Source of the DNA: an uncultured Bacteroidales bacterium
GTDB taxonomy: Bacteria; Bacteroidota; Bacteroidia; Bacteroidales; FEN-979
Direction of reading: 5' to 3'
Length of the DNA: 64,000 bases
NCBI GenBank assembly: GCA_903887775.1
Contig: CAISRB010000027.1
Location: forward strand, 62,001 to 126,000
In this document: one piece after another, positions 39,834 to 62,555 of the stretch
Layout: each line of letters starts with the position of its first letter
How positions within the stretch are numbered: position 1 is the first letter of the stretch
Translations under genes and position numbers: made by a program
The notes under the pieces: model-generated
Told to the model about the DNA's origin: nothing
What the model saw: the letters and a program-made list of their open reading frames with translations, nothing else
Databases searched by the model: none

Positions 39834-41219
39834 CTACTTGTGGAACTTCCTGATAAAGTCCTCCACCTCAGGTACACCACCCTGGTAAATCAGGTAGCCG
39901 TTATACGGTTCGCGGGGCGTAATATCACTGTTGATCGGGGTAAGCATGATCTTTTTTACTTCTTCGAGGTCGGAAGTTTGTCCGAGCGCCCAGCCAAGTT
40001 TGATATAAGCTACTTCAGGCAGCATGTTTTCGAGAGGTATCACACCTTTTGCCATCAGGTCGCGGCCGGTATCGTAAACAAACATCCCAACGTATCCCCA
40101 GAGGGTTTGAACAGTCATATATACTGCGACTCCCTTTTCACGTGCCCTTTCGATCGCAGGATAGAGAGGTTTGTTCACATGGCCCAGGCCGGTGCCGATG
40201 ATGATGATCCCCTTATAGCCGCTATCGATCAGTGAATCGATCATGTCGGGCTGCATATTCGTATAATAGTAGATCATGGCCACCTTTTCCTCAAACACAG
40301 GAGTGATCTTCACATTACGATCGCTGCGGCGGTGATTGTAATCCGTCTTGATCGGAACAACACCTTTGCGGCTGACTGTGGCAATCGGTGTATCCCCTAT
40401 CGTCCTGAAAGTGGAACGATAAGATGAATGCATCTTGCGAACCCTTGTTCCACGGTGTAAAAATCCGTACTCGTCAGAAGTAGGCCCAAACATACACACC
40501 ATGACCTCTGCAATATCTCCGTGACCTGCAGCAGTTGCAGCATGCATCAGGTTCAGGGCAGCATCCGAACTGGGGCGGTCGGAAGAACGCTGGGAGCCGA
40601 CAAGTACAATGGGAATCGGAGAGTTCTGAACCATGAAAGTCAGGGCGGCTGAAGTATAATGCATCGTGTCGGTACCATGGCCGATGATGATCCCCTGTGT
40701 ACCTTTCTCAATCTCTTCCCCTATTGCAACAGCCAGTTTTTTGTACTGTAAAGGGCCCATGTTTTCGCTGAAAACAGCAAAGATCTTTTCGGTGGTCAGG
40801 TTGCAGATATCGGCAAGTTCCGGCACTGCGCCATATAATTCACCCGGCGAAAACGCCGGGATCACAGCCCCGGTGCGATAATCCAGCCTGGATGCGATGG
40901 TTCCTCCGGTTCCAAGTAATTTAACGCTGGGCAACCCCTTCGAATACGGAAACTCTTTTTCGGGGATTTTGTATACAGCCTTTTTATAGCCAAGTTCAAC
41001 AATATCTGTTATAGTACCAACATCGATACCTATATTATAACCCGTAAAGAACTTCATGACAAGGTGCTTATCGTCGGTGTTCTCGGCTCTTGGAAGAATA
41101 GTGCCCTCAAATATGCCGCGGGTTGTATCAACCTTAACTTTGGCCCAAACCCGGGCATTGAATTTCTGCATCACTTCGAGTGCATGTCCTTTATAGCCCT
41201 GGAAAATATCTTCAGTCAT
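39834..41219 (-). CDS. gatD: Glu-tRNA(Gln) amidotransferase subunit D (archaeal-type asparaginase-like)
   Basis: 461 residues. Residues 1-90 form the small beta-barrel domain specific to GatD (VWAKVKVDTTRGIFEG). The asparaginase-like core follows: LLGTGGTIASRLDYRTGAV with Thr107, IIGHGTDTMHYTS with Thr183-Asp184, and RGTRVRKMHSSY with Lys262, a complete T-T-D-K catalytic set. The N-terminal barrel and the SRLDYRTGAV stretch separate it from ordinary L-asparaginase. It releases ammonia from glutamine for GatE, which uses it to turn Glu-tRNA(Gln) into Gln-tRNA(Gln). GatDE is classically archaeal. The adjacent gatE makes a simple asparaginase unlikely. Confidence 0.93.
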   Translation of the reverse strand: MTEDIFQGYKGHALEVMQKFNARVWAKVKVDTTRGIFEGTILPRAENTDDKHLVMKFFTGYNIGIDVGTITDIVELGYKKAVYKIPEKEFPYSKGLPSVKLLGTGGTIASRLDYRTGAVIPAFSPGELYGAVPELADICNLTTEKIFAVFSENMGPLQYKKLAVAIGEEIEKGTQGIIIGHGTDTMHYTSAALTFMVQNSPIPIVLVGSQRSSDRPSSDAALNLMHAATAAGHGDIAEVMVCMFGPTSDEYGFLHRGTRVRKMHSSYRSTFRTIGDTPIATVSRKGVVPIKTDYNHRRSDRNVKITPVFEEKVAMIYYYTNMQPDMIDSLIDSGYKGIIIIGTGLGHVNKPLYPAIERAREKGVAVYMTVQTLWGYVGMFVYDTGRDLMAKGVIPLENMLPEVAYIKLGWALGQTSDLEEVKKIMLTPINSDITPREPYNGYLIYQGGVPEVEDFIRKFHK

Positions 41220-41220
41220 A

Positions 41221-41309
41221 AAATAAATAGCGAAATAGTGAAATAGTGAAGTAGCGAAATTAAAGAATTATATGTTCAATATAAGTAGCGAAATAGCGAG
41301 GTAACGAAA
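41221..41309. repeat. TAGCGAAA array between gatE and gatD
   Basis: Units AATAGCG, AAATAGTG, AAATAGTG, AAGTAGCG, AAAT, then after an AT-rich interval AGTAGCG, AAATAGCG, AGGTAACG, AAAT. The interval GAAATTAAAGAATTATATG resembles the gatE 3' end and its flank (GAAATTAAAATTTGATATG), with about three quarters of bases identical, suggesting a local duplication. It fills the entire gatE-gatD gap. Confidence 0.85.
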
Positions 41310-43274
41310 TTAAAATTTGATATGTTCGTTGAGCTCCCGTAATGAAATGTTGCCGAGGGCGAGTTTATGCAGGCTTCCCATGATCCAGCGATGGCCGGCT
41401 GCATCTTCGCCTGAGGTCCTGGTTTCCCTGTATTTTTTTACCAGGAAGGGAAGTTTACCCAGGATCTCTTCCTTAGCAACCTCTTTATAACCCAGGGTGA
41501 CCAGGATAGAGTCAAAATCCATCTTCGGATGATCGAACAGCACTCTCAGCATTTTTGGGGCAATGGCTAAGTCGAGCCCCCGCTGCCTGATGAATTTCAG
41601 CAGAGCAAATACCATGTCGTTGCGGAATAACCGGAAAGCATCATATTTTCCCTGAAGATGTTTCAATCTATGACCTAAAAGAGTGGCAACGAACTTAGGT
41701 GCGATTTCCAGTTCCCCGGAGCATTTCTCAATCAAGGGCAGCAGGTTATATTTCAGTAAAAAAGTAAACGTGTCTGGTGGGACTCCCCATGCCTTCAGCT
41801 GGCTGTAACGGTCACAGATATCAGGGGCAAGGTCTTTCCTGAGGTTTTCAATCACTTCATCTTCAAGGGGAATAGGAGCGGAATCTGTATCGGGATACAT
41901 TCGGTCGGCGCCCGGAAGCACACGTTCAAAAATCGTAGTCCCGTTCTCAAACGACTTACGGGTTTCGTTGGGAACACCGTTCATGGCCATTTTACAACGC
42001 TCTTCTATGGTCTCAAGTGCGGTTTTTATATCGGCCTCAGGTCCCCAGAAAATGATCTGCGCGTCTTCTTCCCTGCTGCCCAGTATGGTCCTGACTTTTG
42101 CCCATACCTTGTCACGGGCCATGTCTTCCAGCATCTCCGAATGGATCATATTCGGTTTTTCGATGCATGCAATCACTTTCAAACGGTCGGTGATCTCATC
42201 GGCGAACATTTTGCCCGGCTGCGTAAAGTGGGAAAGAATTCCACGGAACAGCGGCAGATTGACGATATATATTTTTGTTGATTTATTCGCTTTGTGGACT
42301 TCTGGCAGATCGATTTTTATTTCTTTCAGGCTGACTTCCTTTGAAGCAATCTTCCAGGCGGCCGTATCTTTGACCGGCTTCAGAAGCCGTTCTTTTATCA
42401 GAAGAAGCGCCCATTGCCTGAATGCTTCATTGTGTGTAAGCTCGGGCATCCAGGAAGTATGGGCCACGCCTTTGATCTCAACCCTGGTCCCTCCACGGCA
42501 GCTTACATTCACATCGGCCCTGGTTGAACCAATCCCCTGTCGGACCTTGCCGGTACTTCTGTTCAGGAAGCGTATGTAATCGGCCCCTTCCTTCACCTCG
42601 TCAGGGTTTGCAAAATCGGGATAGGTAACCGTTTCAATCAGCGGCATGCCAAGCCGGTCGGTGCGGTAAATCCTTACGTGACCTATATCGGAAACTTCAC
42701 GGCAGGAATCCTCTTCAAGGCTCAGTTGGATCAGCCTTACTTTTTTGTTCTTCAGCTGGATCTCACCTTCAACACCTATGATTGCAGTGCGCTGAAATCC
42801 TGTAGGAATGCTTCCGTCGAGATATTGTTTGCGGGTGATATGCACCTCACCTACGATTTTAAGTTTTGAGAGCACGGATATCGCGATGGCAATATTCAGG
42901 GCTTCCCGGTTCAGCGGGAAAGGAGGGGTGTCATCCACATCATACGTACAGGCTGAAGTGTTAGATATCCTGTAGACGATCTCCTTACGCGTTTTAAACT
43001 CCATCAGGGCTGTTCCGTCATATTCTCCCAGTTCGCTGAGTGTAGGCCTCATATGGCGGATAAGCTCCGCATCGAACTCTTCGGGTTTCTGAAACACTCC
43101 GGCCGGGCAGCGGCAGAATAGCTTAAGCTTCGTATTCAGCTGCTGGTGAACTTCCAGCCCCGACATGAATCCTATACGGTCATAATCGGCCTGGGTGGCT
43201 TGCTTGCGCCCGACGTACCCGACCAACTTCCGGGTCTCTTCATAGTTGCGCTTAGGGTCAAATAGTTGTTTCAT
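41310..43274 (-). CDS. gatE: Glu-tRNA(Gln) amidotransferase subunit E (archaeal-type)
   Basis: 654 residues from the ATG at 43274; an ATG at 43319 would add 15 residues. It begins GFMSGLEVHQQLNTKLKLF, then NTSACTYDVDDTPPFPLNREAL and RKQYLDGSIPTGFQRTA, the GatB/GatE catalytic core. The GatE-specific AspRS-like insertion is present at about residues 380-470 (VRTILGSREEDAQIIFWG, NGVPNETRKSFENGTTIFE, LPGADRMYPDTDSAPI). A GatB_Yqey tail with AAGHRWIMGSLHKLALGN closes it. It phosphorylates and amidates Glu on tRNA(Gln) using ammonia from GatD. The insertion domain rules out bacterial GatB. Confidence 0.93.
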   Translation of the reverse strand: MKQLFDPKRNYEETRKLVGYVGRKQATQADYDRIGFMSGLEVHQQLNTKLKLFCRCPAGVFQKPEEFDAELIRHMRPTLSELGEYDGTALMEFKTRKEIVYRISNTSACTYDVDDTPPFPLNREALNIAIAISVLSKLKIVGEVHITRKQYLDGSIPTGFQRTAIIGVEGEIQLKNKKVRLIQLSLEEDSCREVSDIGHVRIYRTDRLGMPLIETVTYPDFANPDEVKEGADYIRFLNRSTGKVRQGIGSTRADVNVSCRGGTRVEIKGVAHTSWMPELTHNEAFRQWALLLIKERLLKPVKDTAAWKIASKEVSLKEIKIDLPEVHKANKSTKIYIVNLPLFRGILSHFTQPGKMFADEITDRLKVIACIEKPNMIHSEMLEDMARDKVWAKVRTILGSREEDAQIIFWGPEADIKTALETIEERCKMAMNGVPNETRKSFENGTTIFERVLPGADRMYPDTDSAPIPLEDEVIENLRKDLAPDICDRYSQLKAWGVPPDTFTFLLKYNLLPLIEKCSGELEIAPKFVATLLGHRLKHLQGKYDAFRLFRNDMVFALLKFIRQRGLDLAIAPKMLRVLFDHPKMDFDSILVTLGYKEVAKEEILGKLPFLVKKYRETRTSGEDAAGHRWIMGSLHKLALGNISLRELNEHIKF

Positions 43275-43319
43275 AGATAAGGTCAGGATTGTTTTGAAAG
43301 AAGAGGTAAAATTAGGCAT

Positions 43320-61424: not shown

Positions 61425-62555
61425 ATGAATTTCAGAATTGAACACCGCGATCACGGAAGCTCAGCCAGGGCCGGGTCACTGATCACTGATCATGGTTTGG
61501 TTCACACTCCCTTTTTCATGCCGGTTGGTACTGCAGGGGCTGTAAAGGCATTGCACATCAGGGACCTTCGGGATGAGATCAGGTCTGAGATCATGCTCAG
61601 CAATACATATCACCTGTACCTGAGGCCAGGAGCCAGGATTATCTCTGATGCAGGCGGGCTGCATAAATTCAATGGCTGGGACCGGCCCATCCTCACCGAC
61701 AGCGGAGGGTTCCAGATCTATTCACTTACTGATATCAGGAAGATCACCGATGAGGGTGTTGTTTTCCAATCACATATCGACGGATCAAGGCATCATTTCA
61801 CTCCGGAATCGGCAATAGACATCCAGCGTTCGCTCGGAGCCGATATCATCATGGCATTCGACGAATGCACTCCCTGGCCGTGCGAATATGAGTATGCAAG
61901 GAAATCCCTGAAGCGAACCCATAAATGGCTGGACCGTTGTATCCAGCACTTTCATATAACAGAATGTCCTCACGGGTATACCCAGGCCTTGTTCCCTATC
62001 GTCCAGGGAAGCACGTTTGAAGATCTGAGGGTGCAGTCAGCCGAATATATTGCATCAACCGACGCAGCCGGCTATGCCATAGGAGGCCTTTCGGTAGGTG
62101 AGCCTGCAAAGGTCATGTATACCATAACAGGCCTGGTATGTAATATACTGCCTCAGGAAAAGCCCAGGTATCTGATGGGCGTGGGAACACCTGCAAACAT
62201 CCTCGAAAGCATAGCGCTCGGCATCGATATGTTCGACTGCGTGATCCCTACACGGAATGGCAGGAACGGTATGCTTTTTACGAGAAACGGCATCATCAAT
62301 ATCAAGAATGAAAAATGGAAGGACGACTTCTCCCCTGTTGAAGCCGGGGGTGATGTGTTTTCCGATACTCAGTATACAAAAGCGTTTCTGAGACATCTTT
62401 TTATTTCGGGTGAAATGCTTGCAGCCATGATTGCAACGATGCATAATCTCGGGTTTTATATCTGGCTGATGAAGGAAGCGCGGAAACGCATACTTGAAGG
62501 GGATTTTACTGACTGGAAGAAAGAGATGGTAATCAAACTGATGAGCAGACTTTAA
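61425..62555 (+). CDS. tgt: Queuine tRNA-ribosyltransferase lacking the zinc cysteines
   Basis: 376 residues. It exchanges guanine for preQ1 at the wobble position of GUN-anticodon tRNAs. ILTDSGGFQIYSL carries the general base Asp92. IGGLSVGEPAKVMY follows, and DMFDCVIPTRNGRNG carries the nucleophile Asp271. Canonical bacterial Tgt then has a CxCxxC...H zinc site. Here the corresponding stretch is FSPVEAGGDVFSDTQYTKAF with no cysteine, while His340 remains in TMHNLGFYIWL. The same substitution seems usual in Bacteroidota from memory, so the enzyme is probably functional. Confidence 0.93.
   Translation: MNFRIEHRDHGSSARAGSLITDHGLVHTPFFMPVGTAGAVKALHIRDLRDEIRSEIMLSNTYHLYLRPGARIISDAGGLHKFNGWDRPILTDSGGFQIYSLTDIRKITDEGVVFQSHIDGSRHHFTPESAIDIQRSLGADIIMAFDECTPWPCEYEYARKSLKRTHKWLDRCIQHFHITECPHGYTQALFPIVQGSTFEDLRVQSAEYIASTDAAGYAIGGLSVGEPAKVMYTITGLVCNILPQEKPRYLMGVGTPANILESIALGIDMFDCVIPTRNGRNGMLFTRNGIINIKNEKWKDDFSPVEAGGDVFSDTQYTKAFLRHLFISGEMLAAMIATMHNLGFYIWLMKEARKRILEGDFTDWKKEMVIKLMSRL

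Follow-up and report, generated by a model that had tools for sequence, protein, structure and literature searches.

How does a bacterium that encodes its own glutaminyl-tRNA synthetase (GlnRS) come to carry a GatDE amidotransferase, and what would the enzyme do there? The question is raised by an adjacent gatE–gatD pair in an uncultured Bacteroidales bacterium (assembly GCA_903887775.1), found in a window of 64,000 nucleotides that spans positions 62,001 to 126,000 of contig CAISRB010000027.1. In those portions of the literature available to us, from which all published work is cited here, GatDE is given as archaeal only (PMC8007984), or as now found only in archaea, all of which lack GlnRS (PMC9499178). 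A 2014 paper states, in the part available, that no bacterium is known with both routes to Gln-tRNA, and the absence of GatCAB has led to the judgement that the GlnRS of Bacteroidetes is functional and essential (PMC3927822). A bacterial GatDE is not described in the available text of the open-access papers on GatDE consulted here (PMC8007984, PMC4206432, PMC9499178, PMC9976931, PMC13047044, PMC4027206, PMC3655853, PMC4810234); through the curated models, such proteins may already be annotated as GatD or GatE in databases. The answer that we prefer, with modest confidence and from sequence comparison, is that GatDE has long been resident in Bacteroidota and would serve as a salvage or second route that amidates Glu-tRNA(Gln) beside GlnRS.

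The pair forms a two-gene unit, gatE first and then gatD, with the following features (window positions):

41310 to 43319, reverse strand: gatE, 669 codons as an open reading frame; TIGR00134 391.5 bits against a cut-off of 319.6; match to 2d6f_C at E 8.7e-84
42360 to 43190, reverse strand: GatB-like catalytic core of GatE (about residues 44-320), with Pfam GatB_N and residues common with GatB
41979 to 42359, reverse strand: AspRS-like inserted domain of GatE, not in GatB (about residues 321-447)
41313 to 41861, reverse strand: helical and YqeY tail of GatE (about residues 487-669), from HHalign; strongly diverged from the GatE of other classes
41220 to 41309, reverse strand: spacer of 90 bases between gatE and gatD
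39834 to 41219, reverse strand: gatD, 461 codons; TIGR02153 501.8 bits against a cut-off of 324
41004 to 41147, reverse strand: N-terminal domain of GatD (residues 25-72); PF18195 41.2 bits against a cut-off of 25.7
40434 to 40901, reverse strand: span of the GatD catalytic codons (Thr107 at 40899-40901, Thr183 at 40671-40673, Asp184 at 40668-40670, Lys262 at 40434-40436)

The initial annotation, made from the sequence alone, had recognised a complete pair here, and curated models, intact active-site residues and the predicted fold confirm it. GatD passed a second curated model as well (NF003217, 501.5 against 310), and GatE fell narrowly under the annotation threshold of NF003107 (442.7 against 456), the best-scoring of all models. 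The Pfam domains of GatD (GatD_N, Asparaginase and Asparaginase_C) place an N-terminal GatD domain ahead of an L-asparaginase-type amidase, and the pattern first read in the protein (N-terminal barrel, Thr107, Thr183-Asp184, Lys262) is upheld by the PF18195 match and by an alignment in which Thr104, Thr107, Thr183, Asp184 and Lys262 are invariant in 54 of 54 rows. Type I L-asparaginase has the same amidohydrolase domains and the same T-T-D-K residues as GatD, which differs from it in an extra N-terminal domain and the GatE partner; the extra domain and the curated scores thus set it apart from a plain asparaginase. All three parts expected of GatE (GatB-like core, AspRS-like insertion, YqeY tail) were found, and 38 residues are common to at least 95% of 56 GatE rows (54 bacterial, two archaeal) and at least 85% of nine GatB rows; these GatB-shared residues include E56, H58, E202, E203, D204, R222, E229, D269, N271, E281 and K283. 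The true start of gatE is probably Met16 (43274), since most homologue alignments start at residue 12 or later.

Among known systems, the best structural and sequence match is archaeal GatDE (M. thermautotrophicus 2d6f and P. abyssi 1zq1, the nearest solved structures by sequence), with the same two subunits, domain order and catalytic residues. In particular, the predicted GatE fold is closest to archaeal GatE, at 30-33% identity, and the model also aligns with several GatB chains up to residue 669. The core and tail of GatE are homologous to the GatB subunit of bacterial GatCAB, whereas GatE carries the AspRS-like insertion and is partnered by GatD instead of GatA and GatC. The ratio of nonsynonymous to synonymous change (dN/dS) against near relatives was 0.050, 0.059 and 0.097 for gatE and 0.023 and 0.017 for gatD, values that are only rough (dS 1.2-2.5; the remaining nine of 14 comparisons were saturated). 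By these sequence measures, gatE is under constraint and has retained its active site.

The pair is widespread in the phylum. Of 41 genomes (the host and its 40 nearest relatives), 27 had GatE over the cut-off, including 23 of 25 within the family of the host, as did 30 of 395 genomes sampled across Bacteroidota; these 30 represent eight families. When one genome per species was scanned, relatives at E <= 1e-3 turned up at 571 or more loci, some of which could be GatB; the best 80 were all GatE-like (61-86% identity), and 76 of them bore the label of Bacteroidota or one of its subgroups, the other four being two Aminicenantes, one Alphaproteobacteria and one 'uncultured bacterium'. The expectation that homologues sat unnoticed in bacterial assemblies was therefore borne out. 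No true relative was found on viral contigs, where 65 pattern matches were seen, and the search for archaeal GatE in plasmids gave one match: a haloarchaeal record called a plasmid (Natrinema thermotolerans CP031304.1), in which a GatE frame without a listed gene ends at 481 residues. A clean loss of gatE in one near relative (G004) is not shown: the neighbouring chloride-channel gene is missing too, and the gap is therefore probably one of assembly.

Phylogeny places GatE outside GatB. In a careful tree of 29 rows, GatE and GatB were split with support of 100/100, two archaeal GatE formed a group (100/99), and so did 23 bacterial GatE (97/97). Within the latter, the sequences of the type found in Bacteroidales form a clade (100/100) on a stem of 1.44 changes per column, and those of other classes stand apart from it (79/96) and are drawn open. 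The same groups came out of a quick tree of 66 rows, in which the positions of one genome, G397, and of the archaea were not resolved, two Aminicenantes rows were nested inside the Bacteroidales-type clade, and a long-branch warning applied to Natrinema, G397 and one GatB row (L043). G397, a deep single row in the bacterial part of the 29-row tree, carries a much more diverged gatE–gatD pair; it also has GlnRS, and GatB gave no match there. The joining of the archaeal rows and the other-class GatE into one group, named after the tree was seen, was rejected (approximately unbiased test, p-AU 0.02). In the GatD tree, 51 bacterial rows formed one group (100) and the other-class rows had no group support; the two archaeal rows did not fall on one side of a branch, and the single asparaginase outgroup sat on a very long branch. 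Thus, of the tree check proposed initially, the position of GatE outside GatB stood, and the GatD half was tied to that one long-branch outgroup.

On the evidence of these sequences, GatDE is a resident bacterial lineage, its GatE one supported clade apart from two archaeal GatE and GatB. The initial annotation had proposed an inter-domain acquisition; as an event special to this genome it was not supported, since the pair has a long history in the phylum and bacterial GatE is a single clade. An ancient origin in archaea is one candidate in this comparison with two or three archaeal sequences. The presence of a Bacteroidales-type gatED in G196, a genome of another class that also has GatB and GlnRS, suggests transfer of the pair inside the phylum.

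What machinery does GatDE meet in its host? Two genes matched PF00749: a curated GlnRS (TIGR00440, 768.2 bits against 425.8) and a single gltX for a GluRS of ordinary bacterial type (TIGR00464, 485.5 against 290; the archaeal GluRS model, 104.7 against 401.8). In this assembly, which is 98% complete, GatE was the sole match of PF02934, so that the host gave no GatB; the search did not extend to GatA and GatC. Moreover, at least two PF00749 matches were present in 35 of the 41 genomes and in 24 of the 27 with GatE, the exceptions being G006 (no match, 80% complete), G012 and G033. In the 395-genome sample, GlnRS was over the cut-off in 196 genomes, namely in 27 of 30 with GatE and 169 of 365 without, an association with Fisher p 1.8e-6 when kinship is ignored. 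Leaving the host aside, 29 of these genomes had GatE. Seven of them gave no GatB match, and GlnRS was present in all seven; GatDE was never the sole amide route seen in the sample. Among the GatE genomes without GlnRS over the cut-off, G291 has GatB and one PF00749 fragment only; G327 and G354, from one family, have both GatB and GatE and may possess two indirect routes to Gln-tRNA(Gln). As 27 of the 30 carriers have GlnRS, GatDE adds to GlnRS and does not replace it, so that, of the two options first considered, duplication of glutaminylation stands and replacement is rejected.

The tRNA-Gln genes of the host are of bacterial type too. Forty tRNA matches in the genome exceeded the Rfam cut-off (150 of 175 first-look candidates were scored), two of them bacterial-type tRNA-Gln genes: tRNA-Gln(CTG) lies directly behind glnS (L188:2113-3931), and ARAGORN places a tRNA-Gln(CTG) in the glnS loci of many relatives too; tRNA-Gln(TTG) lies elsewhere, downstream of a stretch with many short matches in near relatives. 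Archaeal tRNA-Gln is read through A1-U72 (PMC9499178), whereas U1-A72 is the pair read by bacterial amidotransferases (PMC9976931). The A1-U72 pair was absent from all 50 tRNA-Gln genes that were read in the host and its relatives (GatE is present in the genomes of 41 of them and absent from those of the other nine; drawn from 60 loci among the matches listed, one of which, L219, yielded no readable gene). In contrast to the archaeal setting, GatDE here thus meets GlnRS, a bacterial GluRS and T1-A72 tRNA-Gln. In the host, tRNA-Asp begins with G1-C72, and tRNA-Glu(TTC) with G1-T72 instead of G-C. D-loops by ARAGORN have 7 nucleotides in tRNA-Gln(UUG), 8 in tRNA-Gln(CUG) and tRNA-Glu, and 9 in tRNA-Asn and tRNA-Asp.

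In the mechanism that we propose, GatD would free ammonia from glutamine or asparagine, and GatE, with ATP, would activate the glutamate on Glu-tRNA(Gln) and amidate it to Gln-tRNA(Gln). This is the chemistry of the known GatDE family, and it is supported by the conserved residues and the fold. We infer that Glu-tRNA(Gln) arises when GluRS mischarges tRNA-Gln, most likely the UUG isoacceptor, because its U34 and U35 are common with tRNA-Glu(UUC). GlnRS, which makes the same product by charging glutamine in one step without amidation, would do the bulk of the charging, with GatDE as salvage or second route. In a more elaborate form, which we regard as doubtful, the cell would have two complete routes split by isoacceptor: GlnRS would serve the CUG isoacceptor encoded behind its own gene, and the UUG isoacceptor, with its small D-loop, would in part receive glutamate from GluRS and then be amidated by GatDE, the tail of which had been re-fitted to a bacterial tRNA.

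Several observations weigh against the proposed salvage role. The tRNA-Gln genes are the same with or without GatE (T1-A72 and A73 in 50 of 50), and GluRS is ordinary, so the adaptation of both that the initial annotation foresaw was not found; tRNA-Asn of the host also begins with T1-A72. The tail of Bacteroidales-type GatE (residues 491-669) is only 11-22% identical to other bacterial GatE; as the tRNA-reading part, it could thus point to another substrate. In the GatE model, the catalytic part has low-to-middling confidence, the 10-residue blocks of residues 61-230 lying mostly at pLDDT 41-75. At eight of 109 gatE loci, no gatD was present within the fetched DNA (L082, L088, L089, L093, L097, L109, L116 and L143, with 704 to 5006 bases downstream). 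Finally, a survey classes Bacteroidetes GluRS as discriminating, on gene content (PMC3927822), so that Glu-tRNA(Gln) in need of salvage may be scarce. The host GluRS has Arg at the position of Arg358 in T. thermophilus GluRS, as counted in an alignment. We take Arg358 to be a discriminating-type feature; the site decides little, since Arg is also found in 4gri, presumably the Borrelia GluRS.

The main rival, which we consider rather unlikely, is tRNA-dependent asparagine synthesis, in which a relaxed AspRS would make Asp-tRNA(Asn) and GatDE would amidate it despite the presence of AsnRS. It draws on the first pair shared by tRNA-Asn and tRNA-Gln but not by tRNA-Asp, and on the precedent of GatCAB, which performs this synthesis in bacteria with both AsnRS and GlnRS (PMC4206432). 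Moreover, no AsnB was over the cut-off in the host, the sole match being 48.8 bits in a frame of 616 amino acids (AsnA was not searched for), and among the 41 genomes AsnB was over the cut-off in 5 of 27 with GatE and 8 of 14 without, counts that are confounded by kinship because 23 of the 27 belong to one family. The substrate of archaeal GatDE, however, is Glu-tRNA(Gln) (PMC9499178). The three PF00152 genes of the host encode AspRS, AsnRS and LysRS (682.5 bits against 468); AsnRS scored 675.8 against 414, and the sole AspRS is of ordinary bacterial type (817.5 against 443, and 225.8 against 353 on the aspartate--tRNA(Asn) ligase model, although model scores do not measure discrimination). 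An ordinary AspRS and an AsnRS speak mildly against this rival.

A second rival, also improbable in our judgement, is that Bacteroidales-type GatDE has shifted to another substrate, either another charged tRNA or glutamate outside translation, which would explain both its coexistence with GlnRS and its divergent tail. The long stem of the clade fits such a shift, as does the distribution of change: between Bacteroidales-type and other-class GatE identity is 59-77% in the core (residues 44-300) but 27-33% in the insertion region (301-440), while GatD, which supplies the ammonia, keeps 68-71% identity to most other-class rows. Nor was a conserved functional neighbour that points to translation found at 108 loci, where gatD (92 loci) was the commonest neighbour and an OstA-like gene (34 loci) came second. 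The tail is, however, still homologous, with its helical and YqeY parts (HHalign 96.3% to archaeal tails and 87.0% to GatB tails, the latter for eight of nine GatB rows, against 0.2% for the control), and is 38-47% identical inside the clade. In known amidotransferases this part reads the tRNA elbow (PMC4810234, PMC4027206); therefore, the tRNA-reading part has changed most but remains constrained. Moreover, the window holds no tRNA gene, none of the 40 tRNA places of the genome (from 150 of 175 candidates scored) is unusual, and GatE coexists with GlnRS in other classes too, where its tail is less changed.

It is very improbable that the pair is a relic or a plain glutaminase or asparaginase, with GatD alone of importance or both genes dispensable baggage. 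GatD does have a complete asparaginase active site, GlnRS alone should suffice, and GatE is below the cut-off or absent in 14 of the 41 genomes, several of them incomplete. GatE is not needed for amide hydrolysis, yet it is kept under constraint with its active site, and gatD lies directly downstream of gatE at 95 of 109 loci (the contig ends within 300 bases at six). Contamination of the assembly or bin by an archaeon, which the draft state of the host genome and nearly all searched relatives (several to hundreds of contigs) might invite, has next to no probability; the initial annotation had called it unlikely, and it is ruled out: the pair lies on a 178,756-base contig among bacterial outer-membrane genes such as LptD, OstA and MlaD, and its distribution among the near relatives, the phylum sample (including the single-contig genomes G172, G334 and G164) and all of the best 80 species-scan records refutes it for the family as a whole. 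The gatED pair is thus old and recurrent in Bacteroidota, and neither contamination nor recent import accounts for it.

At the locus itself, scans gave 9 promoter sites against 6.0 (standard deviation 3.0) in shuffled sequences, and 4 terminator sites against 4.7 (standard deviation 2.3). The spacer between the two genes has short TTTCGCTA-like repeats; the window contains a single copy of a 13-base form that has one mismatch.

A GatDE beside GlnRS in Bacteroidota touches three published views, namely that GatDE is confined to archaea, that no bacterium has both routes and that GlnRS is essential in Bacteroidetes, and it extends the known history of the GatB/GatE family by a branch in bacteria. 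If the split by isoacceptor is true, GatDE and GlnRS are not mutually exclusive, contrary to the usual account of why archaea did not acquire GlnRS. If the enzyme is active, these bacteria would be a natural setting for two questions: whether an amidotransferase can serve in the quality control of mischarged tRNA, and why archaea never combine GlnRS with GatDE.

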